DNA from: Halorubrum sodomense
GTDB lineage: Archaea; Halobacteriota; Halobacteria; Halobacteriales; Haloferacaceae
DNA length: 64,000 nt
Assembly: GCF_900111935.1 (NCBI RefSeq)
Contig: NZ_FOYN01000004.1
Coordinates: forward strand, 124,001 to 188,000
Reading direction: 5' to 3'
The position numbers and the translations under genes were made by a program. Positions 864-56,699 of this stretch are shown here, one piece after another. Position 1 is the stretch's first letter, and every line of letters begins with the position of its first letter. The notes under the pieces were generated by a model. It had not been told where the DNA came from, ran no database searches, and saw nothing but the letters and a program-made list of their open reading frames with translations.

Positions 864-928
864 CCCCCTCCGCACCTTGTGATGATGTAGCGATATGTGT
901 AGGGACGCGAGAAGCGGGGTGCTGGTCA

Positions 929-3613: not shown

Positions 3614-3732
3614 CCGTCGCCCTAATCAACCCAATCTTGGTTGACATTATCCAACCAAGTCCGAGTAAAAATCGCTCTTAAGGTCTGTTCCGTTATTTCC
3701 CCTCTCTCGACACTCCTCCGTCTTTCTCCACA

Positions 3733-3870: not shown

Positions 3871-3975
3871 CTACTCAGAAGAAGTGTCTTGAGTAAAAGA
3901 AGTCACAAGGACAGCTCGGGTAGGAGTCAGGCTCTCGATTTTTCTGGAACACGAGACAGTAGAGGAGAGGCCCTA

Positions 3976-3989
3976 TTCAAACATTTGAA
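3976..3989. promoter_or_regulatory. Perfect inverted repeat, candidate operator
   Basis: TTCAAA-CA-TTTGAA is a perfect 14-base palindrome, with a further TTTGAA half-site at about 4003, located 45 bases before the HTH gene at 4035. The position suits autoregulation by that HTH protein, as in many toxin-antitoxin operons. Confidence 0.4.
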
Positions 3990-4034
3990 TTCTACCAAAA
4001 CTATTTGAACAGGGGGCACAAAGGTGGGGATACA

Positions 4035-4574: not shown

Positions 4575-4579
4575 TATTT

Positions 4580-5077
4580 GTGCTCTTTCTCGCAAATCGT
4601 ACCAACGTTCAAGCTCGTCAATTACACAAACGGCTCCGGAACCAGCTAAGGTCTGGAGGGTACTTCCATACGGTCCAGCTAAAGCGTAGTCCAGCGCGAG
4701 CAGCAGGTCCATACCGAATCTACGCTGAGACGGACCCGCGCATCTTCCTTGGTGACACCTCGTACCCTGAAAAGGAAGGTCGTCTAGAGGTCGGGTTCGA
4801 TATCAATACTTCAGCACCGTATGAACACTACCGGTTGAACTGGATTGAGCCAAATCGGAATATAATGGTGGGATGGCATCAAGACCATGGCCACGACGAC
4901 TTAGGGAAAGTCCATGCACAGGTAAACGACGGTAAAACTGTAGTTGAGCACGTATCGGCTACGTTCATTGATGCACATCCTCTGGAAGTATTCGAGAAAC
5001 GAATGGAGGCTCTCCCGGACCTTATCAAGTCCATTGAATGGAAAGACGGCCGTCCAGTTGGACTTGATTGGCCCTGA
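4580..5077 (+). CDS. TumE-like putative toxin partner
   Basis: 165 residues from a GTG start 5 bases after the HTH gene. The middle part (about residues 90-150) has the pattern of TumE-family (DUF6516-like) proteins: a YRLNWIEP strand, GWHQDHGHDDLGKVHAQV with clustered His/Asp, then a conserved HPLEVFEKRM helix. Members of that family are proposed toxins of two-gene systems. The assignment is from motif memory only. The first 50 residues are basic and may be wrongly included if translation starts further in. Confidence 0.6.
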   Translation: MLFLANRTNVQARQLHKRLRNQLRSGGYFHTVQLKRSPARAAGPYRIYAETDPRIFLGDTSYPEKEGRLEVGFDINTSAPYEHYRLNWIEPNRNIMVGWHQDHGHDDLGKVHAQVNDGKTVVEHVSATFIDAHPLEVFEKRMEALPDLIKSIEWKDGRPVGLDWP

Positions 5078-5129
5078 GTCATTTCAGCGGTTGTCTCGCG
5101 ACGATGACTCGAACTGGGTCTAATCAGTC

Positions 5130-5633
5130 TTAAACGCCAACCTCTTTCGCTCGCTGCTTCAGCTCCGCATCCTTTGCGTCAACTCCGTCTAGTGAGTTGA
5201 GTTCGACACTGGCGTCTTCCAGCGCGAGTTCGACCCGCGCGAGACTCCAACGCATCATAGCGAGCTGCCTGTACACGGTCTGAGACACGTACTCCTGTAC
5301 GTCCTCGATAGACGCTTCCAATTCATCGAATTCCTTAGCAAGTTCAACGACATCTACCTTTGTGCGGGCAGGCTGGCGGTCATGGGAGATAAGTCTCTTC
5401 GCTTCTCTCATTTTTTCGTCCGGGATAACCGCGACCTTCATTCTCACCCCGGACCGCGAGGGAATCTGTGACCGCTCGATTTCAATATATCCGTGTCGCT
5501 CTAATTTTCGGAACTGGTACTGTAACTGGCCCTCAGTTAACTCTGTGCGCCGCCGAATCGTCGACGTGGCCGCTTCGCCGTCTTCTTCAAGGACAGCCGC
5601 GATAAATTCACGCGTTTCTTCGGTCTGATTCAT
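5130..5633 (-). CDS. Winged-helix protein with C-terminal coiled coil
   Basis: About 167 residues. Residues 5-60 form a MarR/ArsR-like winged helix (STIRRRTELTEGQLQYQFRKLERHGYI), and residues 90-165 are predicted long helices (VVELAKEFDELEASIEDVQEYV). An AT-rich stretch with TATA-like sequence lies directly upstream (5641-5665). The ATG at 5642 is a possible longer start. It is convergent with the TumE-like gene. Probably a DNA-binding regulator encoded by the integrated element; its target is unknown. Confidence 0.7.
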   Translation of the reverse strand: MNQTEETREFIAAVLEEDGEAATSTIRRRTELTEGQLQYQFRKLERHGYIEIERSQIPSRSGVRMKVAVIPDEKMREAKRLISHDRQPARTKVDVVELAKEFDELEASIEDVQEYVSQTVYRQLAMMRWSLARVELALEDASVELNSLDGVDAKDAELKQRAKEVGV

Positions 5634-5642
5634 CTGAATCAT

Positions 5643-6102
5643 ATATAATTATTGATAGTAAGACTGTAAATGTGTATGGGTGTCACAGGCTTTCAAAGCA
5701 TGGTCGGACAGCCTTTGACGGGGTATAATTCGAAGCTTCTTACCAAGGCTTCCAGAGGCTTTGCCCACTATTTCCGACTCTTACTCATAGACACGCCCCC
5801 CTCAAAGAGTGTAGAACCCAAGGTGATTCTCTTGAAAAAGTGTATGAGTCCACAGCGAACAACTCGATACCGGAGAGAGCAACGACGAGGTACACCTAGT
5901 TATCGCCAACTCCCAGATACTCGGAGAACGAACCTCGACACGTAATGCGAGCGAGCGCGCGAACCACACACCTCACTCTCGAAGAACACTAACAAGGGGG
6001 ATACTTCTTAGAACAGGACAGGACTTGGAGGCAGCCAGTCGGCGACAGCACAGCAGTCGAGGTCAGCGAATCCGATATAGTCGGCGAGACCGTTTCAGGA
6101 CC
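5643..6102. other. Intergenic stretch, 460 bases
   Basis: The left end is the AT-rich promoter region of the winged-helix gene at 5633. The open frames inside have a composition unlike real haloarchaeal proteins. I see no RNA gene or repeat. Confidence 0.4.
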
Positions 6103-6342
6103 ATGGTCGACGACTCAGCGATAGACTGGCCCGACGACCTCGAATGTGGCGAATGTGGTGTAATCGTTGGTGAGGACGGAGTGCGTATCCAGTACGAATC
6201 TCTCTTGAGCCCCCTCGAACCGGAGTTATACGCGTGGTGTAATACCTGCTCTCCTGACACCGAAGAAGAGGAACAAGAACTGTGGGCTCACGTGAAAGCG
6301 GGAGACTTCAGAGAGCAAGCCCAATCGTGGGATGAATACTGA
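6103..6342 (+). CDS. Small zinc-finger protein
   Basis: 79 residues from the ATG at 6103. It has two Cys pairs (CGECG near residue 17 and CNTC near residue 46) that can form one zinc ribbon, and an acidic C-terminal half. Such micro-proteins are frequent in haloarchaeal mobile elements. Function unknown. Confidence 0.6.
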   Translation: MVDDSAIDWPDDLECGECGVIVGEDGVRIQYESLLSPLEPELYAWCNTCSPDTEEEEQELWAHVKAGDFREQAQSWDEY

Positions 6343-6413
6343 GGAACGCAGACCTTGGACGTACAATTCTTTTCGACGCTTTCGAGTGAACCACAGTCGG
6401 TTGCTGGTATTCT

Positions 6414-7352
6414 CTACAGACCGAACAGGCGCGAGGCCATGACTCTCTTGACTTCTTCCAGTTCGAAATATTGCTCATCGGAAATCAAAACGCTCGCGTG
6501 AGTTGGACGACGATTCGCTATGTCGATAACTGCCTCAAAGGGAATCGAATCACCATAATAAATTGCCTCGTCTGATGGAGCAGGCCCATCCCATTTCCAC
6601 AGGACTTCAACGACCTCGTTGTCAACTTCGACCCACGCGTGCGTCGATGCGCGAGATGGATGACTGGCCATAGCAAGTCCTTCACAATAGCGAACATCGT
6701 CGTAGACCTCGAACGCGTTCGTGCGAAGTGCCTCAAAAGCGAGTAAATAGCACGAATTCGCGTCAATACTGTTGGCACGCCATTCTTCGGCGACGGCGAC
6801 CACATCTTCCGGTGGGTTTGTCGACCGTCTTGATGGATTATACTTGACCCCATCAATCGGACAGGAGCCCGTAAGCACAGCGTAGTCTATCGCGCTCCCG
6901 AGGTGGCGGACTCGCTCTTTTGAATCTGCCAACAAGCGGTTCGCGCGTCGGCGTCTATTGAATGAATTACGCCACTTTTCGTATTCAATCATATCAACGC
7001 CAGCGTCTATGAGGAGGCCGTAAGCCTCATCCTCAGAGAGTTCACTACGAGCGGAAAGATTGCCAAGATAGTAGGCAATCGCGTCGTGCTGAGTGGCAAC
7101 TACATCGACAGTGCTATCATGAAAATTGCTTCGCTGGACTTCTAAACGGTTGTCTGTGTTCTCACGAGTCGCGGCACCGCGAGTGAGCAAAAAATGGAGC
7201 GTATCACGGGGGTTATTCATGTGACTCACATCAGTGGAGTGTTGGCAGATGAGTTCGTGGTCATCTGCTTCTATTGTTACCTCGGTAATTGCCCCGCTCG
7301 ACGGGTACATCGTGCTATCATACGAGTTAGAACGCTTATACTTAGCTGGCAC
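6414..7352 (-). CDS. Uncharacterised protein with transglutaminase/papain-like C-terminal motif
   Basis: 312 residues. No family recognised over the N-terminal half, which is rich in Arg and helical (for example SFNRRRRANRLLADSKERV). The C-terminal third has a Cys in NSCYLLAFEAL, a Cys in RYCEGLAM, then STHAWVEVDNEVVEVLW. The Cys...HAW...D/E spacing resembles the catalytic layout of transglutaminase/papain-like folds. A TATA-like stretch at 7368-7378 supports a start near 7352. Probably accessory cargo; the enzymatic idea is inference. Confidence 0.6.
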   Translation of the reverse strand: MPAKYKRSNSYDSTMYPSSGAITEVTIEADDHELICQHSTDVSHMNNPRDTLHFLLTRGAATRENTDNRLEVQRSNFHDSTVDVVATQHDAIAYYLGNLSARSELSEDEAYGLLIDAGVDMIEYEKWRNSFNRRRRANRLLADSKERVRHLGSAIDYAVLTGSCPIDGVKYNPSRRSTNPPEDVVAVAEEWRANSIDANSCYLLAFEALRTNAFEVYDDVRYCEGLAMASHPSRASTHAWVEVDNEVVEVLWKWDGPAPSDEAIYYGDSIPFEAVIDIANRRPTHASVLISDEQYFELEEVKRVMASRLFGL

Positions 7353-7677
7353 AGGGCCTCTATCTATATTATCAGTCTCTCATTTACTCATATGGCATTA
7401 TATTTTGATAGTAGCAAAATTCTCAGTTTGATGGGCCTGCTCAACTCTTTCTGGCAAAGGTCAGTCTCATAGGTTCTACAGACTGATTTTGCTACAATCG
7501 AAGGCGTGTAAATGTGGCTACTGTATGGTGGGACTACTCAGTTATGACACATGATGTATTATTTGTATTGCCTGAAAAAAGGCTTTTAGGGCCTTCTAAA
7601 CCCGTTCTTATTTATACTAATTTCAGAAGCAACATATATGTATAGAGTAAAGCGTCCGAAATTATGAGGAATAAAAC
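7353..7677. other. Divergent promoter region, 325 bases
   Basis: AT-rich stretch between the cargo gene and the integrase. It contains TATA-like sequences at 7368-7378 (serving the minus strand) and at 7608-7617 and 7633-7642 (serving the integrase). I found no gene here. Confidence 0.45.
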
Positions 7678-8844
7678 ATGTCCTCTAAACCAAACAATCG
7701 AGACGATGTACGAGTCCCGAAGTATACCCGGGAAGAAATGAACGTTGGAACAGTCAGCGATACGCTCCGGGGAGAACTGAACAAAAATCAGTTCACTCTC
7801 TACAAGGACTGGCAACTCGCGGTCCTCCGGTGGGCGTTCGACCGTGGACGCCGGCCGAGTCGACGGAAGGGCTACGCGAGGAACTCCATGCCCCACATCA
7901 AGAGCGCAGTAGAGCGGTTCAGCGTGTGGCTCTACACAGAGTGTGGATTCACCGTTGAGTTCACGGAAGAACACCTCGACGACTACTGGTACTACCAGCT
8001 TGGGCGGGACACGAAGCTCGACAGCAAGCGTCGAGAGCTGTTGAACGTTAGGCTCGTCCTCAAGCAGAGGGGGAAAGAGTGGAAGATTCCGGAGAGCGAG
8101 GAAATCTATCGGGACATCGCCGAGGAGGAAGCCGACCCGGGATTCAGAGACTGGTACCGTGACTACGAGCTGAAGGATATCAAGGCAGCATCTCTGGACC
8201 TCCACACGACCCCAGACCGAAAGAAGCTCTCCGAGGGAGAAATTGAGGAGTGGGGAGCGTACCTCGCTCAACGGCTTGAAAAGCCGAAGAACAAACTCAC
8301 TGATGAGGACTGGGAGGCCGAAAGTTGGAAGGTTCCAAGCCTTGTGTACGTGTCGTGCGACATTGGTCTACGCCCCTGTGAGGTGACCCGGGCACAGGTC
8401 TACTGGGCAGATATCGAGGGTGCCAGCAAGCCGTACATTCGAATTCCACGGAAAGAGGATTCGAAGCTGGGCAAGAAGAACCGCAACTGTCGGCTGAGCG
8501 TTGAGGCTGCAAAGATTCTCGAACGTTGGATAGACGAGCGCGAGACGCTACCAGAGTACAAGGACACAGATGCCCTCTGGCTCACGAGTGAGGGGAACCG
8601 ATACGTGAGCAGCACGCTCCGTCGCACGGTCATGATTCCGCTTCAGCGAGAGGCCGGCATCAACATCGACAAGCGCGAGAACGGCTGGTACATGATTCGA
8701 CGTGGACTCGGAACTGACATCGTCAACAAGGGCGGCGACATCAGTCTCCTGATGCAGCAGCTCCGCATCGACCGCTACGAGACCGCCTTGCGATACGTCC
8801 AGAATGCGGACAAGGCCTCTGAAGACTACTTCGACGTGCGGTAA
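7678..8844 (+). CDS. Tyrosine-type site-specific integrase
   Basis: 388 residues. The N-terminal SAM-like core-binding domain (about 30-150) is followed by a catalytic domain (about 205-385). The box I Arg is in SCDIGLRPCEVTR, the box II segment is MIRRGLGTDIVNKGGD with Arg in place of the usual His of HxxR, and the nucleophile candidate is the Tyr in ALRYVQNAD. A purine-rich GAGGA lies 8 bases before the start. It is 470 bases from a partial tRNA-His that looks like its att half-site, and it is followed by a small winged-helix protein. It is expected to integrate and excise the element. Confidence 0.9.
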   Translation: MSSKPNNRDDVRVPKYTREEMNVGTVSDTLRGELNKNQFTLYKDWQLAVLRWAFDRGRRPSRRKGYARNSMPHIKSAVERFSVWLYTECGFTVEFTEEHLDDYWYYQLGRDTKLDSKRRELLNVRLVLKQRGKEWKIPESEEIYRDIAEEEADPGFRDWYRDYELKDIKAASLDLHTTPDRKKLSEGEIEEWGAYLAQRLEKPKNKLTDEDWEAESWKVPSLVYVSCDIGLRPCEVTRAQVYWADIEGASKPYIRIPRKEDSKLGKKNRNCRLSVEAAKILERWIDERETLPEYKDTDALWLTSEGNRYVSSTLRRTVMIPLQREAGINIDKRENGWYMIRRGLGTDIVNKGGDISLLMQQLRIDRYETALRYVQNADKASEDYFDVR

Positions 8845-8915
8845 TCGACACGAGTAGGCGACAGCAACTACTACCATGCTTGAGCCACCTTTCCCAGACA
8901 GAGAAGTGACCAAAA

Positions 8916-9176
8916 ATGCCCGAAGGACATCTTACCGTTAGGGATAGAGTGTGGGATGCTGCGTTGACGACGCTCGTTAACCGCGGCAAGTTCAAGTTAA
9001 GCGACCTCTCGTTCGATGAATCACAGACAGCGACTGTGAGAAGGGTTCTGAAGACGATGATAGAATTGGGTTGGCTCAAGAAAGATAGCAAGGGGTCCTC
9101 CATCTATCGGCTTGGACCGAAGGCAGAGCTATTGCTGGACGTAGACGAAGAGATTATCGAGTCGGCAAATTCGTGA
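8916..9176 (+). CDS. Small winged-helix protein, possible excisionase or element regulator
   Basis: 86 residues with a winged-helix core (LSDLSFDESQTATVRRVLKTMIE, then a GWLKKDSKGSSIYRL wing). It is located between the integrase and the att site, the usual place of a recombination directionality factor, and it could instead control integrase expression. Confidence 0.65.
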   Translation: MPEGHLTVRDRVWDAALTTLVNRGKFKLSDLSFDESQTATVRRVLKTMIELGWLKKDSKGSSIYRLGPKAELLLDVDEEIIESANS

Positions 9177-9312
9177 AAACACTCACCACTCTTGCGTAGA
9201 TTATCTTTGGTTTCCTCATATTGGCTTCTGTGACATCTAGGGGCCCCTAAACACTTTTTAGCTCAAATCTATTTTCTCAATCTAACCAAATTTGTATATC
9301 GTTTTACTTTCT

Positions 9313-9355
9313 CCTTGTGGAGGCTGAGACGCGGGTTCGATTCTCGCACCCGGAC
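9313..9355 (+). other. Partial tRNA-His(GTG) 3' half: attachment site (attR-like)
   Basis: The 43 bases contain an anticodon loop TTGTGGA (9315-9321, GTG anticodon), the 3' anticodon-stem strand, a variable loop, a complete T-arm (stem 9331-9335 with 9343-9347 around TTCGATT) and the acceptor 3' strand ACCCGGA followed by C (9355). A C at position 73 is diagnostic of tRNA-His. The sequence upstream cannot complete the anticodon stem, D-arm or acceptor, so it is not a functional gene. This is the pattern left when an integrase inserts at the anticodon-loop region of a tRNA. The intact tRNA-His should lie at the left end of the element on the plus strand, outside the window. Confidence 0.8.
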
Positions 9356-9356
9356 C

Positions 9357-9560
9357 TACACGGCGGAGCCGTGTTGCGTTTTCACCGGTTCTCAATACAA
9401 CGAGAACCATCTGTCTCAAGTCAAAAAGGCGGGTCTCCGGGTGGTTCCCAACCCGTCCGAAGCGTACCCGTCACCGACTCCCGAGAACACCTCATCGGCT
9501 GGAGTAATCGCAGCTTTCGATTACAACGGTAGCGAGGCGAATTCATCCGTTTACCTGAAT
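9357..9560. other. Short intergenic stretch between att site and IS element
   Basis: About 200 bases of intermediate composition. The open frames look spurious. It may contain the original downstream sequence of the tRNA-His gene. Confidence 0.3.
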
Positions 9561-9573
9561 TGAGGCGCTAAGG

Positions 9574-9616
9574 CCCCTTCCTCAACGAACGAGCGAAGAG
9601 AGTGAGTAGGGAGGGG
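9574..9616 (+). repeat. IS left-end hairpin
   Basis: CCCCTTCCT (9574-9582) pairs with AGGGAGGGG (9608-9616) with one G-T wobble, enclosing a 25-base loop. Subterminal hairpins of this type are the recognition sites of IS200/IS605-family transposases. Confidence 0.6.
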
Positions 9617-9714
9617 ATACAGCGCCGCACGGTTCTCAAACACGTTCGACGCTCGGCCCACAGACCCACGCAATCGAAACAACAATACGCATAGATACGC
9701 ATAATACGTATGTA

Positions 9715-9834
9715 GTGAGGCGGAAGAACATCACCATCCGCGAAGACCAAGCCGAGTGGGTCGAGGAGAACCATCTTAACCTCTCGTCGTTCGTTCGCGG
9801 ACAACTTGACGAACTCATCGAAGAACGCTCGTGA
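9715..9834 (+). CDS. Mini ribbon-helix-helix protein upstream of TnpB
   Basis: 39 residues from a GTG start, ending in a TGA that overlaps the tnpB GTG (GTGA). The sequence shows a strand KNITIRED followed by helices WVEENHLNLSSFVRG and LDELIEER, matching a CopG/Arc-type fold. The same small gene precedes tnpB in other haloarchaeal IS elements. It probably represses the element's transcription, by analogy only. Confidence 0.65.
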   Translation: MRRKNITIREDQAEWVEENHLNLSSFVRGQLDELIEERS

Positions 9835-11066
9835 ACTACAACTACAGGTATCGACTCCGACCGTCCGACGCTCTCGAAGAACAGTTAGCGTGGACTGTCG
9901 ATACCTGTAGACAGGTCTACAACCACTTTCTCCACCGACTCAACCGCACCGACGACACCTCGGCGTACTCTGAGCAGAAGCTCCTGCCGAGTCTCAAGAA
10001 GTGGTGGAGCGACCTGAAAGGCGTTCACTCGAAGGTACTACAGAAGGTCGTACAACGGCTGTACGATAACCTCTCGACACTACGAGAGCGCAAAGAGAAG
10101 GGCTACCGCGTCGGGACGCTCAAGTGGAAGGCACCGGGCGAGTACCGCAGTTTCACCTACAGTCAATCCGGCTTCAAGCTCAAGAACACGGGCGGTCGGA
10201 CGCGACTGTGGCTCTCAAAACTCGGAGAAATCCCCCTCACCTTCCACCGCGACCTCCCCGACGACGCTGACATTAAGACCGTCACGGTCAAGCAAGAACC
10301 TACCGGGAAGTGGTACGCCATTCTCGGCATCGAGACGCCCGACGACCCGCCGGAGAAGCCGGAGAATCCCGAGAACTGCGTCGGTATCGACGTGGGGATT
10401 CTCAAGTACGCTCACGACACCGACGGAACCGCCGTCGAATCCCTCGACCTGTCCAACGAACGCGAACGTTTGGAACGCGCACAGCGCGACCTCTCGCGGA
10501 AACAGCACGGGTCGGACAATTGGGAGAAACAGCGTCGGGTTGTGGCAGAACGCCACGCCGAGTTGAAGAACAAGCGCCGCGACTTCCTTCACAAGCTCTC
10601 GAACTACTACGCTCGGGAGTACGACTTGGTGGCCGTCGAGGACTTGGACGCGAAGGGGTTGGTCGAACTACCGGGCAACTCGCGGAACCGGGCAGGTGCG
10701 GCGTGGGGGACGTTCCTGCGGATGCTCAAATACAAGTGCGAACGCGAAGGAACGCACTTCGTTGCTGTGAATCCGCGCGGAACGACGAAAGAGTGTGCGT
10801 CCTGCGGCGTTTCGACCGAGAAACCGTTGTGGGTGCGCGAACACTCCTGCCCGGCGTGTGGGTTCGAGGCCGACAGAGACGCGAATGCGGCGTGGAATAT
10901 TCTTTCTCGCGGTGTGAAGAAGCGGTTAGGAGCGGGACGCTCCGAATCAACGCCTGTGGAGACTGCGCTCCCTGTGTCCTCGGTTGTGGATGCAAAGCGC
11001 GTCGTGGAAACAGGAAGCCCCACCCTCAAGCGCGAGGGCGTCAGCCCGAGCGGTAGGGTGGGGTAG
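9831..11066 (+). CDS. tnpB: TnpB, RNA-guided RuvC-like endonuclease of IS605/IS1341 elements
   Basis: 411 residues, full length for the family. RuvC-I Asp is in VGIDVGILKYA (about residue 186) and RuvC-II Glu in VAVEDLDAKGL (about 270). A zinc finger is formed by CASCG and CPACG (about 323 and 343), and RuvC-III Asp is in EADRDANAAW. All catalytic residues are present, so the nuclease should be active. TnpB proteins use an RNA from the element's right end to cut the empty donor site and promote retention. GTG start overlaps the upstream RHH stop. The C-terminal tail is encoded within the right-end hairpin. Confidence 0.93.
   Translation: MNYNYRYRLRPSDALEEQLAWTVDTCRQVYNHFLHRLNRTDDTSAYSEQKLLPSLKKWWSDLKGVHSKVLQKVVQRLYDNLSTLRERKEKGYRVGTLKWKAPGEYRSFTYSQSGFKLKNTGGRTRLWLSKLGEIPLTFHRDLPDDADIKTVTVKQEPTGKWYAILGIETPDDPPEKPENPENCVGIDVGILKYAHDTDGTAVESLDLSNERERLERAQRDLSRKQHGSDNWEKQRRVVAERHAELKNKRRDFLHKLSNYYAREYDLVAVEDLDAKGLVELPGNSRNRAGAAWGTFLRMLKYKCEREGTHFVAVNPRGTTKECASCGVSTEKPLWVREHSCPACGFEADRDANAAWNILSRGVKKRLGAGRSESTPVETALPVSSVVDAKRVVETGSPTLKREGVSPSGRVG
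11018..11063 (+). ncRNA. Right-end hairpin and probable omega/re-RNA scaffold
   Basis: Perfect 9-base inverted repeat CCCCACCCT (11018-11026) / AGGGTGGGG (11055-11063), overlapping the last tnpB codons. In this family the 3' end of tnpB and adjacent sequence encode the guide RNA scaffold; the guide would start just past the right end of the element (after about 11070). The RNA boundaries are inferred. Confidence 0.5.
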
Positions 11067-11197
11067 TTCACGCGTGAGATGAAGCCGACAACTGAGAATC
11101 TATCCGCGTTCCCGCCCGTACTCGGGCTTGGATACTTGGCTGGCTCGTTCGGGTGTTAAGCCGACACTCAAATCAGCCAGCGTGTCAAGACCCACGT

Positions 11198-12664
11198 ATG
11201 CGCGATCAGCTCCGACGTCATTATCACTCGATTCGCAATCGAATCCTGCGAATTGAACGACGTGAGGTTCACGAGATCCGTCGGTGGCTCGAGGACACGG
11301 AGAATCTGCTTCACTTCTCTGTCGTGGTTATCGTACCGCTTCTCATCGGAGCCATCACGTGGATAGCGAACGTCTCACCGGTCGTGTCCTTTCTCGTTTA
11401 CCCGCCGCTGGCGTCGGGCACATATACGCTGTTTGCTGACCCTGACGGACCGTACTCCTCGCCAACGAAGTTCGTCGGTGGGATGACCGCCGGGGCGCTC
11501 AGCGGATGGTTCGCGCTCGAAATCGGAACGCGGTTCTGGTACCAGACTCCGGCCGAGCAGTTCCAGGTACAGGCTGGCGTGGCTGCGTTCGGTATTTTTC
11601 TCACCGGGATCGTCACGTGGGTCCTCTCACTCGAAGAACCGACGGCGTTTTCGACGGCGCTTCTCGTCCTCGTCACCGGCTCCGACCGGCTGGCGTACGT
11701 CACTGGAATCATCGGAGCGAGTCTACTCATCGCCGGCGCCTTCGTACTCTGGCGGCGGCACTTCTATCACGAGCGCGCCCGCTATCTGTACACGTCCACC
11801 CACGGTGACGATCAGATCCTTGTACCTGTCCGTGGCGAGACGTCCGAGTCACTCGCCCTCTTTGCCGCACGTCTCGCGGCCGCCCACGACGCCAGCAAGG
11901 TCGTTCTCCTGAGAACAGTCAGTGAGGAGGTCATCGAGGAAACCGAAACGATAGTGGCGGCTACTCAACGGGGGACTGTTCCCGAGGCTCCTGAAGAACC
12001 GCCGGACGAAGGCGTAACCCGCGCGGCTGAAGAGTTGGTGACTGAACAGCAACTACAGCGGCTCGAAGGACTCAAAAATCTGGTCGAATCAACCGTCGAC
12101 GTATCGTGTGAGTTCGTGATCGCCGCGGAGGGAAATTCAGCTGGAGAAACCGTCCTCACGACGGCTGAAGAGGAGAACTGTGATCTGATCGTCTGTCCGT
12201 ACGACACCGAAGACGGAGGCCCCAGTCCGTTCGTCAGAACGATCCTGAAGGGTAACACGGACTCGATCGTGTTGCGTTCATCGAACGGACGAACGGAGTG
12301 GCGGCGCATTCTTGTAATGGCCCGCTCGTCAGGAGAACCTGCCAACGCGATGCTTGACTTCGCGGTTCGACTCCTCCCCCCCGACGGGACGATAAGTGCG
12401 TGTACTTGTATTTCACACCAACAGGAGCGTCGGACAGCGGAGATTATGCTTGAGAATCTCGTCGAACAATTTTCGACGGGTATCGAGACTCGCATCAGCG
12501 TCGCGTCTGCCGAAGCGTTCCTCGATCGGAACGCATCCTCGTACGACCTAGCAGTTGTCGGGGCGAGCACCGATCGAAGCGTTCTCTCACGAGTCGTGTC
12601 CATGCCGACATTCGAGCGCATTCAAGAGGTTGACTGTGACGTCGCAATCGTCCATCGAGCATAG
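11198..12664 (+). CDS. HPP-family membrane protein fused to two universal-stress (UspA) domains
   Basis: 488 residues from the ATG at 11198. The N-terminal region has at least four transmembrane helices (about residues 35-200) with the HPP-like stretch YPPLASGTYTLFADPDGPYSSP. Two UspA-like domains follow (about 210-375 and 385-488); the first contains ILVPVRGETSESLALFAARLA. HPP proteins are linked to nitrite or other solute transport; UspA domains commonly bind nucleotides. The fusion suggests a regulated membrane permease. GC is lower than in the core genome. Confidence 0.85.
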   Translation: MRDQLRRHYHSIRNRILRIERREVHEIRRWLEDTENLLHFSVVVIVPLLIGAITWIANVSPVVSFLVYPPLASGTYTLFADPDGPYSSPTKFVGGMTAGALSGWFALEIGTRFWYQTPAEQFQVQAGVAAFGIFLTGIVTWVLSLEEPTAFSTALLVLVTGSDRLAYVTGIIGASLLIAGAFVLWRRHFYHERARYLYTSTHGDDQILVPVRGETSESLALFAARLAAAHDASKVVLLRTVSEEVIEETETIVAATQRGTVPEAPEEPPDEGVTRAAEELVTEQQLQRLEGLKNLVESTVDVSCEFVIAAEGNSAGETVLTTAEEENCDLIVCPYDTEDGGPSPFVRTILKGNTDSIVLRSSNGRTEWRRILVMARSSGEPANAMLDFAVRLLPPDGTISACTCISHQQERRTAEIMLENLVEQFSTGIETRISVASAEAFLDRNASSYDLAVVGASTDRSVLSRVVSMPTFERIQEVDCDVAIVHRA

Positions 12665-12773
12665 AAAGTCGTCTAACCCCGGTTTCACGAACCCTTCTCT
12701 TGGTGGGTTCAAATTGCGATTCGGAACCGTACGCATCAGAAAATTAATCCGACGGCAAAGAATTTCACAACAA

Positions 12774-13433
12774 GTGACCGAATACGACACAGTTCTTTTT
12801 GACAGTGACGGAGTATTAGTTGAGCCACCAACGTATGAAACCAAAGTCGAAGCGACACGAGCGGCTTTCACAGAAGTAGGGGTTAAACGGCCTAAAAACC
12901 ATCATATCGACGAAATAGTGAATGGCACTACGGTCGAACGGCTTCACGAAATATGTGCCGCCTACGAACTTGACGTGAACACATTTTGGGAAGCCCGTGA
13001 GCGTCTCGACGAGGAGTCTCAATTTAAAAAGTTTGAATCAGATTCTCGAACCCGTTACGACGACGTTACGGCTATTTCGGACGTTTCTCAGACCTGTGGC
13101 ATCGTGAGTAACAACCATCACAGTACGATTGAATTCGTGATGGATTTTTTCGACCTACAATCCACATTCGACACCTATTATGGGCGTGAGAAGACGGTGG
13201 AGAGCCTCGACTACAAGAAACCAAACACGCATTATCTCGACTTGGCGCTGTCGGAACTCGGCGGAGAATCCGCGCTCTACGTCGGTGATAGCGAGCACGA
13301 CGTGATAGCCGCTCATCAAGCGGGTATGGACTCGGTGTTCGTTCGCAGACCCCATTGTACGGACGTGACCCTTTCGACCACCCCCACGTATGAGATAAAT
13401 AATCTACACGAAATACCCGAGATAGTGGGTTGA
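12774..13433 (+). CDS. HAD-superfamily hydrolase, phosphoglycolate-phosphatase-like
   Basis: 219 residues from a GTG at 12774. Motif I is VLFDSDGVLV (nucleophile Asp of FDSD), motif II is the Ser of GIVSNNH, motif III the Lys of LDYKKPNTHY, and motif IV is YVGDSEHDV. A helical cap domain occupies about 20-85. Substrate is unknown; small phosphate esters such as phosphoglycolate are usual. AT-rich compared with the core, so probably acquired. Confidence 0.85.
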   Translation: MTEYDTVLFDSDGVLVEPPTYETKVEATRAAFTEVGVKRPKNHHIDEIVNGTTVERLHEICAAYELDVNTFWEARERLDEESQFKKFESDSRTRYDDVTAISDVSQTCGIVSNNHHSTIEFVMDFFDLQSTFDTYYGREKTVESLDYKKPNTHYLDLALSELGGESALYVGDSEHDVIAAHQAGMDSVFVRRPHCTDVTLSTTPTYEINNLHEIPEIVG

Positions 13434-13541
13434 TCTCGCTGTGAACTACCCCTGTACTCATCGAAGCGACTCACCGCCTCGAGGCGAAACGACGTCAGTC
13501 GATTACGGGATGAAACAGCGGTCCGCAGCCGTGGGTAGCGG

Positions 13542-14402
13542 TCAGGGGAACTCCTCCGGGCTGGAACTGCTGGATCGATAGCGCTCCGACAGGGGTTCAA
13601 TCGGTGTTCTGGGGGTCATCGAGCGCCCGTACAGACCGATCAAAACAACGGCGATCAGCCACCATGTTCCAGAACCGACGACGAACGCCACCGGCAGTAT
13701 TTCCTCTGCCATTCCACCGGAACCTTCCAGAACGCTTCCGACGTTGATCGCGGCATGTAAGAACACAGCAGGGATCACTCCGCCGTCGGTGAGGTTGACA
13801 AGCGCACCGAGGACAGTTGACGCACCCAAAACGAAGGTCGTGTATTCCACAAGGAACAGCGGATCAAGAGTGAAGTTCGGGTGTCCGAAAAACAGGGGGA
13901 GATGCCACACCCACCACAGCACTCCGACGGCGAGACTCGCCGTTAGAACCGATAGCCGCTCTTGGAACCGTGGTTGGAGAAATCCACGCCACCCGAACTC
14001 CTCAACACCCCCGAAAAGGACGACGTTGAGTACGAAGAATCCGAACAGTAGAGATAGCGGGGCAGGCGGTGCGTAGCGTACTGATCCGCCGCTGAGCGCG
14101 GCGAGTACCGGCTGGAGTTCCCCGACGACGACCGGGAGGGATACCGCGCCGAGGTACACCCACACCGGAAACCGCCACTGAAGTGCCCGCCCGAGCCAAT
14201 CTCGGGTCGGGATGTCACTCGCCCAGACGACGAGTACCGCTCCGACCGGGAGACCCCACTGTCGCGGGAACGTGTTGATGTAGACCGGCAAGGTCTCCCA
14301 TAAGCCCATTACGTAGTAGATCGCGTCCCACGACCACGACCAACTGAACACGATGAGGAGGAACGCCGGAACACGGTGTGTGTCGACCCAGGATTGGATC
14401 AT
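13542..14402 (-). CDS. CPBP-family intramembrane metalloprotease
   Basis: 286 residues with about eight transmembrane helices. Motif 1 is EEFGWRGFLQPR (EExxxR, about residue 135), motif 2 is WWVWHLPLFF (His about 165), and a later His is in AVFLHAAINV. These make up the CPBP/Abi intramembrane glutamate protease site. Substrate unknown; relatives include CAAX processing enzymes and bacteriocin immunity proteins. The start at 14402 avoids nine extra polar residues before the first helix. Confidence 0.85.
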   Translation of the reverse strand: MIQSWVDTHRVPAFLLIVFSWSWSWDAIYYVMGLWETLPVYINTFPRQWGLPVGAVLVVWASDIPTRDWLGRALQWRFPVWVYLGAVSLPVVVGELQPVLAALSGGSVRYAPPAPLSLLFGFFVLNVVLFGGVEEFGWRGFLQPRFQERLSVLTASLAVGVLWWVWHLPLFFGHPNFTLDPLFLVEYTTFVLGASTVLGALVNLTDGGVIPAVFLHAAINVGSVLEGSGGMAEEILPVAFVVGSGTWWLIAVVLIGLYGRSMTPRTPIEPLSERYRSSSSSPEEFP

Positions 14403-14610
14403 GGCGAGATCAAAACCACGTACCCTCACAGCGTCCGTTGCTAGGTTTGAAATATAGTTCTTCGCAAGTTCCGTACAAAAGCCCGCAGGTAAATCGGCTA
14501 CTAACAGATATCTGGTAGAGATACCCTACTGTATCTCGCATGACCTTCCGGAAATTTCTCTCATATCTGGATATCATTTACGAGTGAATTTACTATAACG
14601 TAGGTGTGTA

Positions 14611-14624
14611 CGCCCGCGACACTA
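14611..14624 (+). repeat. Left 14-base direct repeat flanking the toxin-antitoxin module
   Basis: CGCCCGCGACACTA, identical to 15431-15444. The two copies bracket the DUF433/PIN-like module and nothing else. Confidence 0.7.
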
Positions 14625-14696
14625 CCGGGCGAGAATCTACTAGTAGGCTCGGTGGACGTGGAACCGGCCGTGTGAGCGACGAGTGACTGCCGAAAA

Positions 14697-14705
14697 GATA
14701 TAAAC
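14697..14705 (+). promoter_or_regulatory. TATA box of the DUF433/PIN-like operon
   Basis: GATATAAAC about 28 bases before the ATG at 14729, consistent with a leaderless transcript. Confidence 0.6.
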
Positions 14706-14728
14706 GAGAACACGACCAACAGAAGCGT

Positions 14729-15004
14729 ATGAGTATTTCCCGCGACGAGAGAGTCCTCGGGGGGGAACCCCGAATCGAGGGGACGAGAGTCGGCGTCCGG
14801 CACGTCGCGGCCAGGGTCGTCGATAGCGACCGGTCGCCCGCACACGTCGCAGACCAACTCGAACTCTCCCTCTCCGAGGTGTACGAGGCGCTCTCGTACT
14901 ACTACGCGCACGTCGAGGAAATGCGTGAGTTCGAGCGTGAAAACGAGGCTGCCTTCGAGCGAATTCACGAGTCATCGCTGAAGCCGAAGGAAACGATTCA
15001 GTGA
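14729..15004 (+). CDS. DUF433-family antitoxin
   Basis: 91 residues. The N-terminus VLGGEPRIEGTRVGVRHVAA is the DUF433 hallmark, followed by a helix-turn-helix-like segment (SPAHVADQLELSLSEVYEALSYYYAH). DUF433 proteins act as antitoxins of PIN-like (VapC45/DUF5615) toxins. It overlaps the toxin start by four bases (GTGA). Confidence 0.88.
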   Translation: MSISRDERVLGGEPRIEGTRVGVRHVAARVVDSDRSPAHVADQLELSLSEVYEALSYYYAHVEEMREFERENEAAFERIHESSLKPKETIQ

Positions 15005-15369
15005 CAGGAGCGCGGATTCTCTTGGACGAGCACGTCGGGCGAGTGTTCGAGCGCGTGCTCAGCGAACGGGGCTACGAGGTCGAGCAGGCGAAGGACGTGT
15101 TCGGCGAGTTCACGGAAGACGCTGAGTTACTGACGTGGTGCGGCGAGCACGGTGTCGCGCTGATGACGAACAACGCGCGGGACTTCGAGAAACTACACCG
15201 GGAGATCGACCACGCCGGGCTACTGCTCTACTACGATCAGAACCGCCCCGACGAGGATCCGGAAGGAGTAGCGCGAGTCGTGGACGAAGTGTTCACCCAG
15301 TACGGAGCGACGGACATCGAAAACGAGATCGTTGACCTCGACGAGTGGTACGACTGGCTACACGGGTGA
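15001..15369 (+). CDS. DUF5615 PIN-like toxin
   Basis: 122 residues from a GTG overlapping the antitoxin stop. The N-terminus ILLDEHVGRVFERVL carries the first acidic residue of the PIN-like (Mut7-C/DUF5615) site. FTEDAELLTWCGEHG and LMTNNARDFEKLH supply the conserved acidic and T-x-(N/D)-xxDF motif. Expected to be an RNase toxin neutralised by the DUF433 protein. Confidence 0.88.
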   Translation: MTGARILLDEHVGRVFERVLSERGYEVEQAKDVFGEFTEDAELLTWCGEHGVALMTNNARDFEKLHREIDHAGLLLYYDQNRPDEDPEGVARVVDEVFTQYGATDIENEIVDLDEWYDWLHG

Positions 15370-15778
15370 CTGACAGTCAACAGTTCGATGCCCGACTCTA
15401 CAGCGCTACCGCTTTCTGATTCGAAATGTGCGCCCGCGACACTAACGACCGGTCTCATCTCCGGCGGCGTGCCGCGTCGACCGGGAAACCCTCGTGGCGG
15501 GCGGTCGCCTGCGCGGCGACGGGCGGGTCGCGTCTGCGACCGGTGTCACGCGCCTGGGTTCTCCGCGCTGTCATCGCTCCCATCGGGGAGTACTCGGGCG
15601 GGGACTGACGGCGCGCGGAGGGACGTAGCGACCCGAGGGGCTTAACGGTCCTGTTCGGCGGTGAGGGGGTTCCCGTTCCCCGCTCTCGCCCGTCAGCGGT
15701 TCGTCGGCCACGTGGAGCGATCGGTGGTATCGGCGCGTATCCGAACGCACTTACGTCCCTGTCACGGACCCACGCGCA
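15370..15778. other. Intergenic transition from accessory to core DNA, 409 bases
   Basis: Contains the right copy of the direct repeat (15431-15444), then a GC jump into core-like composition from about 15450. Frames here look like spurious high-GC open frames. I see no RNA gene. The asd promoter should lie at its right end. Confidence 0.4.
15431..15444 (+). repeat. Right 14-base direct repeat flanking the toxin-antitoxin module
   Basis: CGCCCGCGACACTA, exact copy of 14611-14624. The flanking sequences beyond the repeats differ. Confidence 0.7.
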
Positions 15779-16825
15779 ATGACAGTCCGAGTCGGAATCC
15801 TCGGCGCGACGGGCGCCGTGGGCCAGCGATTCATTCAGCTGCTCGACGACCACCCGACGTTCGACCTCGCCGCGGTCACCGCGAGTTCGGAGAGCGCGGG
15901 CAAGAGCTACCGCGAGGCGGCCAAGTGGCGCGTCGACACCCCCATCCCGGACGACGTCGCGGAGATGGAGGTCGCAGAGACGACGCCAGCGGGCGTCGCG
16001 GACGCGGACATCGACCTCCTCTTCTCGTCGCTCCCTTCCGGGGTCGCGGCCGAAGTCGAACCCGACTTCCTGGAGGCCGGGTACGTCGTCTCCTCGAACT
16101 CCTCGAACGACCGCATGGCCGCGGACGTGCCGCTCACGATCCCCGAGATCAACCCCGACCACCTCGACCTGATCGAGGTCCAGCGCGACGAGCGCGGCTG
16201 GGACGGCGCCCTCGTGAAGAACCCGAACTGCTCGACGATCACGATGGTGCCGACCCTCGCGGCGATCGACGAGTTCGGCCTCGAAAGCGTTCGCGTCTCG
16301 ACGCTGCAGGCCGTCTCGGGCGCCGGCTACTCCGGCGTCACCTCGATGGAGATCATCGACAACGCCATCCCGCACATCGGCGGCGAGGAGGACAAGATGG
16401 AGACGGAGTCGCGCAAGCTGCTCGGCGAGTTCGACGGCGCCGAGGTCGCGCTCCACGGCGCCGACGTGGCCGCCTCCTGCAACCGGATCCCCACGCTCGA
16501 CGGCCACCTGGAGAACGTCTTCGCCGAGTTCGCGGCCGACCCCTCCCCCGAGGACCTCCGCGAGGCGATGCGCTCGTTCGAGGGCGCCGGCGACCTCCCG
16601 AGTTCGCCGGACCAGCTCATCAAGGTGTTCGGCGACGACGAGCCGGAGCGCCCGCAGCCCCGCCTCGACCGCACGTACGCGGACGGGATGGGGATCGTCG
16701 CCGGCGGCGTCCAAGCCACCGAGGCCGGCGCGAAGTACAACTGCCTCGCGCACAACACGATCCGCGGCGCGGCCGGCGCCTCGCTGCTCAACGGCGAGCT
16801 GCTCGTCGAGGAAGGGTACGTCTAA
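15779..16825 (+). CDS. asd: Aspartate-semialdehyde dehydrogenase
   Basis: 348 residues, full length. The NADP-binding motif GILGATGAVGQRF opens the protein, the catalytic Cys is in KNPNCSTITM (about residue 150), and the substrate-binding part includes LQAVSGAGYSG. It reduces aspartyl phosphate to aspartate semialdehyde for threonine, methionine and lysine synthesis. It is flanked by intergenic sequence on both sides, so transcribed alone. Confidence 0.95.
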   Translation: MTVRVGILGATGAVGQRFIQLLDDHPTFDLAAVTASSESAGKSYREAAKWRVDTPIPDDVAEMEVAETTPAGVADADIDLLFSSLPSGVAAEVEPDFLEAGYVVSSNSSNDRMAADVPLTIPEINPDHLDLIEVQRDERGWDGALVKNPNCSTITMVPTLAAIDEFGLESVRVSTLQAVSGAGYSGVTSMEIIDNAIPHIGGEEDKMETESRKLLGEFDGAEVALHGADVAASCNRIPTLDGHLENVFAEFAADPSPEDLREAMRSFEGAGDLPSSPDQLIKVFGDDEPERPQPRLDRTYADGMGIVAGGVQATEAGAKYNCLAHNTIRGAAGASLLNGELLVEEGYV

Positions 16826-52593: not shown

Positions 52594-52599
52594 TTATAT
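52594..52599 (+). promoter_or_regulatory. TATA box of the HEAT/pentapeptide/K+ channel gene
   Basis: TTATAT centred 26 bases before the ATG at 52623. The spacing predicts a leaderless mRNA and fixes the start codon, excluding the upstream in-frame ATG at 52497. Confidence 0.65.
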
Positions 52600-52622: not shown

Positions 52623-55600
52623 ATGCGCGAGGACGCACCGCTCTCGGAGTGGGCGGAGACGGCCGCGAGCGATCAGGACGCGGTCGTCGAACACGTTCCG
52701 GAGGTCGTGGCACTTCTCGACGACGACGACGCAACGGTTCGAAACGACGCGGTGACGGTCCTGAGCCGGGTGGCAAAGACGCGATCGGACGCGGTTCTGG
52801 ACGCCCTTCCGGCACTGATCGAACGGCTCGAGGCCGACGATCAGAGCGTGATCAGACACAACAGCGCGCTCGCGCTCAGCCGGCTCGTGGAAAACCGCCC
52901 GGAGGCGTGTCGAGACGCGATCGAACCCCTCGTCAGGGGGCTCACGGACGGCGACGGCGACGTCCGCGAGAAATGCGGGAGAGCGCTCGATAACTTCGGT
53001 CCCGACGCCGCGGGCGACATCGAGGATGCGAGCGTGAGAGCTGTCGAAGACGCCGCCGACCGGACAGGCGCTGAGACGTCGACCGAGCGAAACGAGGCGA
53101 CACTGGCGCTCACACGCCTCGCGCTGAGATATCCCGAGGAAGTCGCCACGCACACCGAATCGCTCCGCGACCGGCTGGACGACGAGGACAACGTGGTCAG
53201 GTACCACGCTGCGCTGTGTCTGAATCGGATCGCCAAACGGCAACCGCACTTGGTAGTCGAGGCCGTCGAGCCGCTGGCCGACCGCCTCGACGATCCGGAT
53301 GCGGACGTGCGAGCGCTCGCGAGCGAAGCGCTGGCGTCCGTATCCGAAGACGCTCCCGGGGCCGTGACCGAAACGAGCGGTGCGCTCGCCGATGCGCTCA
53401 CCGACAGTAACGACGAGGTCCGTGCCCACGCGGTCGGCGCGTGTCGCGCGCTCGTGGCCGAGTACCCCGACGTGGTGTTGCCGGCGCAGTTCGAACTCGT
53501 CGACCTGCTCGCGGACGCTCGCGGGGAGACGCGGGCGGACGCAAAGAAGGCGCTCCACGGCTTGGCCGACGCGTCCCCCGACGAGGTCGCCGACGTGCTC
53601 GCGAGTACCCGCGACGAGGACTTCGACACGAGCAGCGTCGACGCCGTTCACGGAGAGATAGAAGCGGTCGCCGAGGACGCCGACGGAGCGAGCGCGACGG
53701 ACGTGGAGCCGCCGGCAGGCGACGAGGTGGCCGACGAAGCGGGCGAGAAGCTCCGGGAGCTGGCGGCGGTGATGGAGACGGCCGGGGCGGAGACGCTGGC
53801 CACGTTCGACGACGACATGCTTCGGGAGTTCCTCACGTTGACGGACTCGATCGACGCCGAGGCCGTCTCGGGCGTCGACGCCGGCGACCTCGCGGAGATG
53901 CGCGAGACCGTTCGGACCGCGCTCGACATCGACGGGGGAGACGGCCGCGAGGCTTCCGACCCGGCGACGGACGGCGAGGTCGGTGCGATCGAGACGGGCT
54001 GGGACGAGGACGCGCGCGTCGACCCCGCCGCTCGCCCGGACGACGGCTGTTCGTACGGACGCGACCTCGGAGAACACGCGCGGGAGCAGGACGACGACGT
54101 CTGGACCTGTCACCGGAGTCCGCGGGAAGACGGCGAGTACTGTCTGTTTCACGCCCCGGTCGAAGACACCGACGACGAGGCCGTTCGGGACGCGTTCCTC
54201 GAAGCGATTCAACGGCCGGGACGGGGGCCCAAGGAGTTCGTCGGCGCTCGGTTCGGCGATCTGAACCTCTCGTTCGACATCGTAGACGGGCCCGACAACT
54301 ACCCGATCGATCTCAGGTACGCCACCGTCGAGGGGTCGATCAACTGTCGGCGGGCAGAGTTCGGGCAACCGCTCTGGTTCGAGGGGGGAAGGGTCGCCGG
54401 CGGGATGAACTGTAACGTGGTGACGTTCAAGACGTGGGCGTCCTTCGAGGGGACGACCATGGAACACGCGTGGTTCGGGAAGTCGGAGTTCCGTGACGGA
54501 GTCTCCTTCGACAACGCGACCATCCGCGAAGAGGCGCTGTTCACCGGGGCGACGTTCACGGATCGCGGAGACTTCGAGGGAGCGCGGTTCGGCGCCCACG
54601 CGGAGTTCTCTCGGACCGTCTTCGATTCGGCGTCGTTCGAGCACGCACACGCCGCGGGGACACTCGACCTCGGACACGTGGTCTGTGATCGCTCCCTCAA
54701 AATGGGAGCGATCGAGGCCGAAGACGATATCAAAATCCGGGGCGGCCGGGTCAGGAATCTCAGACTGTCGGACGCCGACGTCGACGGCGACGTCTCCGCG
54801 TCGAAGCTGACCGTCGAGAAGACGATCCACGCCTCGGACGCACGGGTCGGTGGAACGCTGTCGGTTTCGAGCGCCGAGGTCCGGCAGGACGTACTCTGCC
54901 AGGACCTGACCGCGGGGGGCGTCGACTTCGACGCCGCCTCGGTCGCGAAGCGGTTCTCGTTCCAGCGGACGCGCGTCGCCGGGGACTGCGCGTTCAGTGG
55001 GGTCTCTTTCGGGGACGTGACGACGTTCCAGGGGGCCGAAATCGACGGCGATATGGACCTCTCGCTCGGGACGTTCGAGGAGCTGCTGACGCTGCGGGAA
55101 GCCGAGGTCGGCGGCTCGCTCGAGGCCAGTTCCGCGTCCGTGGGCGAACAGGCCGACTTCGTCCACCTCGACGTGGGTGGCGACTGCGACCTCTCCTCCG
55201 TCACGTTCGGCGGGACGGTCATGTTCTTCGAGGGGACGATCGAGGGCGGGTTGGACATCTCGTCGAGCCGCTTCGAGGGGCAGCTGTCACTCTCGATGAC
55301 CGTCGAGGGCGAGTTCGACGGCGACGTCGCCCGCTTCGAGGACGACGTCAACGTCGTCGACACGTCGGTCGGGGGTCCGACGACGTTCAGCAACGCGACG
55401 TTCGGGCGAGACGCGCTCTTCCAGCTGTGCGAACTGCGGGACGCGTGTGCGTTCGACGACGCGGAGTTCGCCGAAGACGCGTCGTTCGCGCAGACGGTCG
55501 TCGAGGGGCCGGCCTCCTTCGAGACGATCACGGTCGGCGGCGTGGCGAACTTCGACGGCGTGAACTTCGAGTCGGGGGCCGCGTTCTTCGGGTCGACGTT

Positions 55601-56699
55601 CGCCGATCTCACGTGTCTGGGAACGCGGACCGGCGACGGGTCGGTCGTTGACATGCGGAACTGTGAGATCGCCGACGGGGCGATCGCGCTCCCGGATGAC
55701 GGCGACGTCGCCTACGACCTCGCGAACGCGGAGCTCGGCGCGGTCGAACTTTCCGACGGCCTCGGGGAGACGAGCGACGTGGACCTCTTCGAGTACTTCC
55801 GGTTCGCGAACACCAGCTTCGACGGGTTCGACTTCGGGAACTACAAACAGGAACTCGCGGAGGCCAACTGGCAACTACACACCACCGTCGACGACGCGGA
55901 GTTCGTGAACCCCGGAAGACAGGACCTCATCGACGCGCTCGCCGTCGAAGACGAGCTGGACGAGGTCGACGACAAGCTGGACGGGGAGCTCTTCGACGAG
56001 GTCGATCACGTCGGGATGCTCCAAGAACAGACCGGACTGGACAGGGCAGTCATCGAGGAGATCGCCGACGCCGAGGATGCCTCGGAGATGCCGAGCAGCG
56101 AGGCGCTGTACGAGATGACCGGTGACGAGGAGTTCCGTGAGACGACGACGGCCGCCGACCTCGAAAACACCTACCTGAAGGCCAAAAACGGCGCGGATCA
56201 GGTCGGCGACCGACACGTGGCCGCGCAGTTCTTCGTTCAGGAGATGAAGTACAGGCGGGCGAAAAACTACCGGTTCGTTCGAGACCCGGATCAGGACCCC
56301 GATGTGCGACTCGTCTCGGCGGGCAAGTGGTTCGGAAACTACCTGCTGCACCAGTCCTGCGGCTACGGCGAACGACTGTGGCGAGTCATCTACGCCTCCG
56401 TGGTCGTGGTCGTCGGATGGAGCTTCATGTACGCGACGCTCACGGAGGGGACGTCCGGAGACGCGGCGGGGCTGACCACCGAGGGACTCGACGGCCTCTC
56501 GCAGCTCGCGACGCCCGAGGGCGCGGACATCATGGTGAAGAACCTCTACTTCAGCATCGTCACGTTCACCACTCTCGGGTACGGCGACATCCAGCCCGTC
56601 GGGACGCTGTCTCGGTTCCTCGCGGGCTTAGAGTCGTTCCTCGGCGCCCTTCTGGTCGCGCTCGTGGTGTTCGTCCTCGGTCGCCGCGTGTCGTGGTGA
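52623..56699 (+). CDS. Giant HEAT-repeat / pentapeptide-repeat / two-helix K+ channel fusion
   Basis: 1358 residues. Residues 1-360 are HEAT repeats with recurring (L)-D-D-x-x-x-V-R-x-x-A units. An acidic linker follows (360-470). At 476-515 is a Cys/His cluster (CSYGRDL...WTCHRS...CLFH) that fits a zinc knuckle. Residues 520-1070 are pentapeptide-like repeats (AxFxx/AsFeg, for example FTGATFTDRGDFEGARFGAHAEFS) predicted to form a right-handed beta-helix. A helical linker (1100-1240) ends in EMKYRRAKNYRF. The C-terminus has one transmembrane helix (about 1253-1275), a pore loop with TLGYGD at 1317-1322 and a second helix (about 1333-1355). The filter is that of K+ channels. The large soluble part should face the cytoplasm as sensor or scaffold. 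No RCK domain is present. Confidence 0.9.
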   Translation: MREDAPLSEWAETAASDQDAVVEHVPEVVALLDDDDATVRNDAVTVLSRVAKTRSDAVLDALPALIERLEADDQSVIRHNSALALSRLVENRPEACRDAIEPLVRGLTDGDGDVREKCGRALDNFGPDAAGDIEDASVRAVEDAADRTGAETSTERNEATLALTRLALRYPEEVATHTESLRDRLDDEDNVVRYHAALCLNRIAKRQPHLVVEAVEPLADRLDDPDADVRALASEALASVSEDAPGAVTETSGALADALTDSNDEVRAHAVGACRALVAEYPDVVLPAQFELVDLLADARGETRADAKKALHGLADASPDEVADVLASTRDEDFDTSSVDAVHGEIEAVAEDADGASATDVEPPAGDEVADEAGEKLRELAAVMETAGAETLATFDDDMLREFLTLTDSIDAEAVSGVDAGDLAEMRETVRTALDIDGGDGREASDPATDGEVGAIETGWDEDARVDPAARPDDGCSYGRDLGEHAREQDDDVWTCHRSPREDGEYCLFHAPVEDTDDEAVRDAFLEAIQRPGRGPKEFVGARFGDLNLSFDIVDGPDNYPIDLRYATVEGSINCRRAEFGQPLWFEGGRVAGGMNCNVVTFKTWASFEGTTMEHAWFGKSEFRDGVSFDNATIREEALFTGATFTDRGDFEGARFGAHAEFSRTVFDSASFEHAHAAGTLDLGHVVCDRSLKMGAIEAEDDIKIRGGRVRNLRLSDADVDGDVSASKLTVEKTIHASDARVGGTLSVSSAEVRQDVLCQDLTAGGVDFDAASVAKRFSFQRTRVAGDCAFSGVSFGDVTTFQGAEIDGDMDLSLGTFEELLTLREAEVGGSLEASSASVGEQADFVHLDVGGDCDLSSVTFGGTVMFFEGTIEGGLDISSSRFEGQLSLSMTVEGEFDGDVARFEDDVNVVDTSVGGPTTFSNATFGRDALFQLCELRDACAFDDAEFAEDASFAQTVVEGPASFETITVGGVANFDGVNFESGAAFFGSTFADLTCLGTRTGDGSVVDMRNCEIADGAIALPDDGDVAYDLANAELGAVELSDGLGETSDVDLFEYFRFANTSFDGFDFGNYKQELAEANWQLHTTVDDAEFVNPGRQDLIDALAVEDELDEVDDKLDGELFDEVDHVGMLQEQTGLDRAVIEEIADAEDASEMPSSEALYEMTGDEEFRETTTAADLENTYLKAKNGADQVGDRHVAAQFFVQEMKYRRAKNYRFVRDPDQDPDVRLVSAGKWFGNYLLHQSCGYGERLWRVIYASVVVVVGWSFMYATLTEGTSGDAAGLTTEGLDGLSQLATPEGADIMVKNLYFSIVTFTTLGYGDIQPVGTLSRFLAGLESFLGALLVALVVFVLGRRVSW

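Follow-up and report, generated by a model that had tools for sequence, protein, structure and literature searches.

Gene and genomic context

In the window, the 64,000-nucleotide stretch of Halorubrum sodomense DNA analysed here, one open reading frame appears to join HEAT repeats, pentapeptide repeats and a K+ channel pore, which raises the question of whether this is a single real protein and, if so, how its soluble parts could act on the pore. The first-pass annotation, made from the letters alone, placed all three in one frame, and its coordinates and its length of 1358 residues (ATG at 52623, stop at 56697-56699) are correct (Table 1). The frame is conserved across three species; full-length proteins of 1358 and 1355 aa are encoded at the same locus in two other Halorubrum species (G026 and G132), and in all three the gene lies between tRNA-Pro and genes for DUF429 and VTT-domain (DedA-like) proteins. 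A frame error joining separate genes is ruled out by its conservation in three species and by purifying selection. A longer frame starting at 52497 is rejected as well, because homologues start at the position of 52623 and a TATA-like box fits this start. This box is kept as TTATAT in G026 and reads TTATGT in G132, and the 29-nt spacing from the box to the ATG is kept in close relatives. The arrangement is consistent with a leaderless start, and the leaderless promoter proposed earlier is plausible.

Several other Halorubrum have no detectable copy of the gene between tRNA-Pro and the DedA-like gene, and the HEAT-channel gene is thus lineage-specific. The stretch adjacent to tRNA-Pro differs in length among other Halorubrum (L088:2834-7010 and L089:5474-8318), and this flank may be a variable insertion site. 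Elsewhere in the window, the GC content of positions 1-16000 is 50-62%, against about 70% in the remainder, which suggests an integrated element.

Table 1. Features of the HEAT-channel gene (positions in the window) and members of its filter-less sister clade (positions in their own loci).
Feature	Residues	Position	Strand	Evidence
TATA-like box TTATAT, 29 nt 5' of ATG (leaderless spacing)		52594..52599	+	
Complete CDS, 1358 aa + stop	1-1358	52623..56699	+	sequence; complete homologues at this locus in G026 and G132
HEAT solenoid, nine helix pairs	25-356	52695..53690	+	Pfam, AlphaFold2, Foldseek
Acidic linker, low-to-moderate-confidence helices	357-470	53691..54032	+	AlphaFold2; charge
C-C-C-H zinc-knuckle motif (CSYG..WTCHR..YCLFH)	476-510	54048..54152	+	sequence; family comparison
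Pentapeptide_3 beta-helix	~531-1044	54213..55754	+	Pfam, periodicity, AlphaFold2
C-terminal beta-helix cap and acidic ~110-residue insert	1045-1180	55755..56162	+	AlphaFold2; charge
Coupling helices (ENTYLKAKNGA..G....F..EM..RR....CGYGERLWRV)	1181-1252	56163..56378	+	AlphaFold2; family alignment
TM1	1252-1272	56376..56438	+	AlphaFold2; hydropathy
K+ selectivity filter TTLGYGD	1316-1322	56568..56588	+	sequence; Ion_trans_2; Lmo2059 alignment
TM2	1328-1357	56604..56693	+	AlphaFold2; hydropathy
Sister-clade members		L098:2801-4366; L100-L107, L118, L126, L130-L138, others	- (L098)	

Domain architecture

The N-terminal part belongs to the HEAT repeat superfamily, being built of tandem antiparallel helix pairs of ~35-40 residues that form an alpha-solenoid. 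HEAT, HEAT_2 and HEAT_EZ score above the Pfam cut-off in the first ~340 residues (E to 4.6e-18), AlphaFold2 models of the window and locus sequences contain the nine helix pairs with pLDDT mostly >90 over residues ~20-330, and the model matches HEAT/ARM structures in Foldseek (E to 4.6e-12). The array has a net charge of -43, and the earlier suggestion that the solenoids might bind nucleic acid is not favoured, although haloarchaeal proteins are acidic in general. In the linker that follows, residues 436-470 have pLDDT <50; a linker of this kind between HEAT array and knuckle is recognisable in only 3 of 170 family genomes, all three of them Halorubrum. The putative zinc knuckle of the first-pass annotation can be pinned to a C-C-C-H motif, which is present in all but a few of the intact family members read and which constitutes the N-terminal domain of HEAT-less relatives.

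The second solenoid is a pentapeptide rod. Pfam recognises 10 stretches of Pentapeptide_3 (76 bits, E 2.6e-21), and the AlphaFold2 model of residues 440-1358 contains, besides the zinc-knuckle region, a regular beta-helix over ~510 residues, with pLDDT mostly 90-97. A strict period-5 test across the rod is negative, because the true hydrophobic period is 5.45 residues (power 2.87, where 95% of shuffled sequences stay below 1.63); together with a 5/6 strand spacing, this period identifies the repeat unit as an alternating 5+6 (11 residues) instead of a strict pentapeptide, and the rod would have ~23 coils at 22 residues per coil. Between the rod and the coupling helices lies an insert of low confidence (pLDDT 31-47). 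The acidic insert is ~99-115 residues long in all three HEAT lineages, as opposed to 35-52 residues in the closest HEAT-less K+ relatives measured. A unique tie between the long insert and HEAT is ruled out, since some HEAT-less, filter-less members also have one.

The coupling helices carry the family signature xYLxAKxxA...G...EM..RR...GYGExxxRV before TM1, which is kept from haloarchaea to Aeromonas and Nostoc. This region has no convincing match to a Pfam family and is a candidate new domain family (window positions 56163-56378). Its net charge is +3, whereas those of the soluble parts range from -12 to -53; the concentration of positive charge before TM1 is consistent with a cytoplasmic N-terminus. 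The two-helix pore with a TLGYGD filter described at first pass is borne out by an Ion_trans_2 match at residues 1307-1356 (44.3 bits against a cut-off of 22.5, E 1.6e-11), the filter itself, and membrane helices at 1252-1272, 1298-1317 and 1328-1357 in the AlphaFold2 model, corresponding to TM1, pore helix and TM2. Two TM helices around a pore loop place the protein among the 2TM members of the K+ channel superfamily, and the canonical T(T)xGYGD filter occurs as an identical TTLGYGD in G026, G132 and a further haloarchaeon, G332. TM2 closes the chain, and no gating domain follows it at the C-terminus.

Conservation is highest in the pore, which is 97-98% identical between species, with a dN/dS of 0.01 in both comparisons with G132 and of 0.18 for the close pair of the window and G026, which differ by few changes. 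Across comparisons dN/dS is 0.20-0.24 for HEAT and 0.07-0.09 for the rod; against the more distant Halorubrum, the values are 0.20 for HEAT, 0.09 for the beta-helix and 0.01 for the pore. As dN/dS is low throughout, all parts are functionally maintained, HEAT being the fastest in amino-acid change.

Family distribution and origin of the HEAT variant

A survey of 391 haloarchaeal genomes at E <= 1e-6 with the last 274 residues gives matches in 198, some of them via the pore alone. The proteins extracted have a common chassis, consisting of a zinc knuckle C-x(n)-W-x-C-x(n)-C-x-F-H, a Pentapeptide_3 rod, coupling helices ending in GYGExxxRV and a 2TM pore. Relatives are found in Nostoc and Aeromonas as well as on plasmids of haloarchaea, and the chassis thus crosses domains of life. 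Their only annotation is "pentapeptide repeat-containing protein" (Haladaptatus, Haloarcula, Halorussus, Halobellus, Nostoc). A scan of genome contigs yields one relative, apparently from the same genome as G132, and phage records contain no match to the channel protein.

The channel chassis is not new and the HEAT array is a rare addition to it. Comparing the survey for the pore with that for HEAT across these genomes gives HEAT-fused channels in 5 of the 391, in three families: the three Halorubrum (the window included), G332 and G034. The G034 protein is divergent, with a GFG filter, and that of G332 (L038:9155-12792) is broken just after the beta-helix into two overlapping frames of 887 and 325 aa, representing either a frameshift or a split gene. 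Homologues do not, then, always lack the HEAT part, as the first-pass annotation had allowed they might, although most of the family does. The HEAT-less relatives read begin with the zinc knuckle or close to it, and HEAT is therefore an extra module placed before a protein that is already complete. In a tree of the coupling helices and pore, twelve HEAT-less K+ channels form a clade with the five HEAT rows placed around it, a pattern that takes at least two changes. Grouping all HEAT forms in one clade is rejected by a narrow margin only (AU p = 0.045), and HEAT may have been gained once and then lost, or gained twice or more often. Among the long-frame relatives read (5 of 12 fetched loci), no other N-terminal module is recognisable on the chassis, and their upstream extensions look like spurious open frame. 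Proteins of ~1400 residues with HEAT repeats in other genomes are, among the matches listed, not at channel positions.

A sister clade (support 100/99) keeps the zinc knuckle, rod, coupling helices and 2TM hairpin, and has TTLGYGD replaced by motifs such as FSLESFITLVLGG, with the conserved form (F/L)S-x-x-(S/G/T/N)-F-x-x-x-x-x-G. Most of its hairpins no longer score as Ion_trans_2. One filter-less member, at L098, is a protein of 522 aa. The clade is widespread: the query finds matches in 130 genomes, among them K+-type relatives recognised via the coupling helices. A copy in the H. sodomense genome itself (contig C9, 350451-350921) matches the whole query and probably belongs to the clade, which is possibly a channel of different selectivity. 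Degenerate filters of another kind occur at L037:9747-13769 and L040:13343-14527, where paralogues beside intact K+ members read TFITLEYV; in these tandem copies the filter may have decayed or the selectivity changed.

Comparison with known channels

The closest counterparts are pentapeptide 2TM channels (PF13576 or PF00805 with PF07885), which have the same beta-helix, GYGE coupling helices and C-terminal 2TM pore and which, in haloarchaea and Aeromonas, have the zinc knuckle also; unlike the 1358-residue protein they have no HEAT array, and their rod is often shorter. With Lmo2059 and with the NaK-type, KirBac and KcsA pores, the protein shares the P-loop, the TTxGYGD filter and Ion_trans_2, and two-TM K+ channels in the PDB are matched at E ~0.002 by the sequence alone and at ~1e-5 by the profile of the family. 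Two-TM K+ channels with known gating domains, such as RCK and Kir, carry those domains C-terminally. In contrast, all soluble parts of the 1358-residue protein are N-terminal and nothing follows TM2. HglK of heterocystous cyanobacteria is a membrane protein predicted to have four TM segments at the N-terminus, with its pentapeptide region at the C-terminal end (PMC8145042); it likewise combines a pentapeptide domain with the membrane, but in the reverse order, and no channel is reported for it (PMC8145042).

Proposed gating mechanism and function

Since no sequence lies after TM2 and it is the coupling-helix pair that provides the conserved link to the pore, gating would come from the N-terminal side. 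The protein is, at slightly better than even probability, a homotetrameric 2TM K+ channel gated from the N-terminal cytoplasmic side by an added HEAT input, where we infer the tetramer, the gating direction, the partner and the role. Four C-terminal TM1-P-loop-TM2 hairpins would make the pore, as the filter and fold imply; before TM1, each subunit would present the helix pair with GYGExxxRV at the membrane face and, beyond it, a rigid pentapeptide beta-helix rod capped by the zinc knuckle. In this variant only, a HEAT array on the flexible acidic linker would act as an added input for a binding partner, its state being passed on to TM1 and TM2 by the rod and coupling helices. Physiologically, the channel would most likely be a K+ valve triggered by stress or by a partner, in a cell with molar K+ inside. 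Against such gating stands the low-confidence insert between rod and coupling helices, so that mechanical coupling is only proposed; against gating by HEAT in particular, most relatives have no HEAT, so the chassis does not depend on it. A bolder version, in which a HEAT receptor acts through the ~23-coil beta-solenoid as a lever on the 2TM pore of a protein-partner-gated K+ channel, within a modular family that swaps input module and pore selectivity, is conceivable although doubtful. A search of open-access papers gave no published precedent for such an N-terminal gating design, and its outcome agrees with the earlier statement that no described channel with a HEAT array was known.

The absence of HEAT from most relatives and its distance from the pore, on a linker partly of very low confidence, would also suit a module that serves localisation or assembly alone, such as one that docks the channel on a cytoplasmic complex, with no allosteric control of gating. 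This is unlikely; the long insert in all three HEAT lineages hints at co-adaptation, though some HEAT-less members have a long one too. Somewhat less likely again is an antiviral effector, in which HEAT would sense a viral component or activity and the opened pore would depolarise or de-potassify the infected cell. The logic would be that of HalA, reportedly the channel effector of the Hailong anti-phage system, with a channel domain and a separate soluble regulatory domain. HalA (PDB 9nyi) is the best Foldseek match to the rod-pore model (E 3.6e-3), a weak match with TM-scores of 0.15/0.35 that serves as analogy only, and the patchy spread (3 of 170 family genomes), the faster amino-acid change of HEAT than of rod and pore, and the tandem and broken family copies would fit defence as well. 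Kinship with HalA, however, finds no support in sequence searches: HalA is not matched by sequence or by any family profile, and it is not known to have a beta-helix or HEAT in common with the 1358-residue protein. HEAT is, moreover, under purifying selection on average, and the neighbours, the same in three species, are housekeeping genes (TrmY-type methyltransferase, CHY zinc finger, OMP decarboxylase, DUF429 and VTT-domain protein).

No synthase or nuclease partner, nor any HalB-type/nucleotidyltransferase gene, is among the neighbours scanned, and PADLOC gives weak HEAT-type matches only, with none to a channel effector. There is no defence island at the window locus, and none is evident near the plasmid-borne relatives inspected, an unannotated Aeromonas stretch aside. 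The defence role raised at first pass is thus not favoured; control of stress or K+ is preferred, because the locus is housekeeping, no partner gene is present and no defence profile matches. Least probable among the readings considered is a membrane-tethered scaffold, whose 2TM hairpin would conduct little or nothing while holding a HEAT/pentapeptide platform at the membrane. The soluble part of ~1250 residues, the two paralogues with degenerate filters and a whole sister clade devoid of the K+ filter speak for it, but the filter of the 1358-residue protein is canonical and lies in its best conserved region.

Significance

The chassis is widespread among haloarchaea and also occurs in bacteria, yet the literature search gave no paper on its function, and the word channel is absent from a 2021 review of pentapeptide proteins. 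With the HEAT variant, possible gating of a K+ pore by an N-terminal solenoid becomes tractable to study. The filter-less sister clade may have altered its pore selectivity while keeping the chassis, and could thereby allow the evolution of selectivity to be tested.
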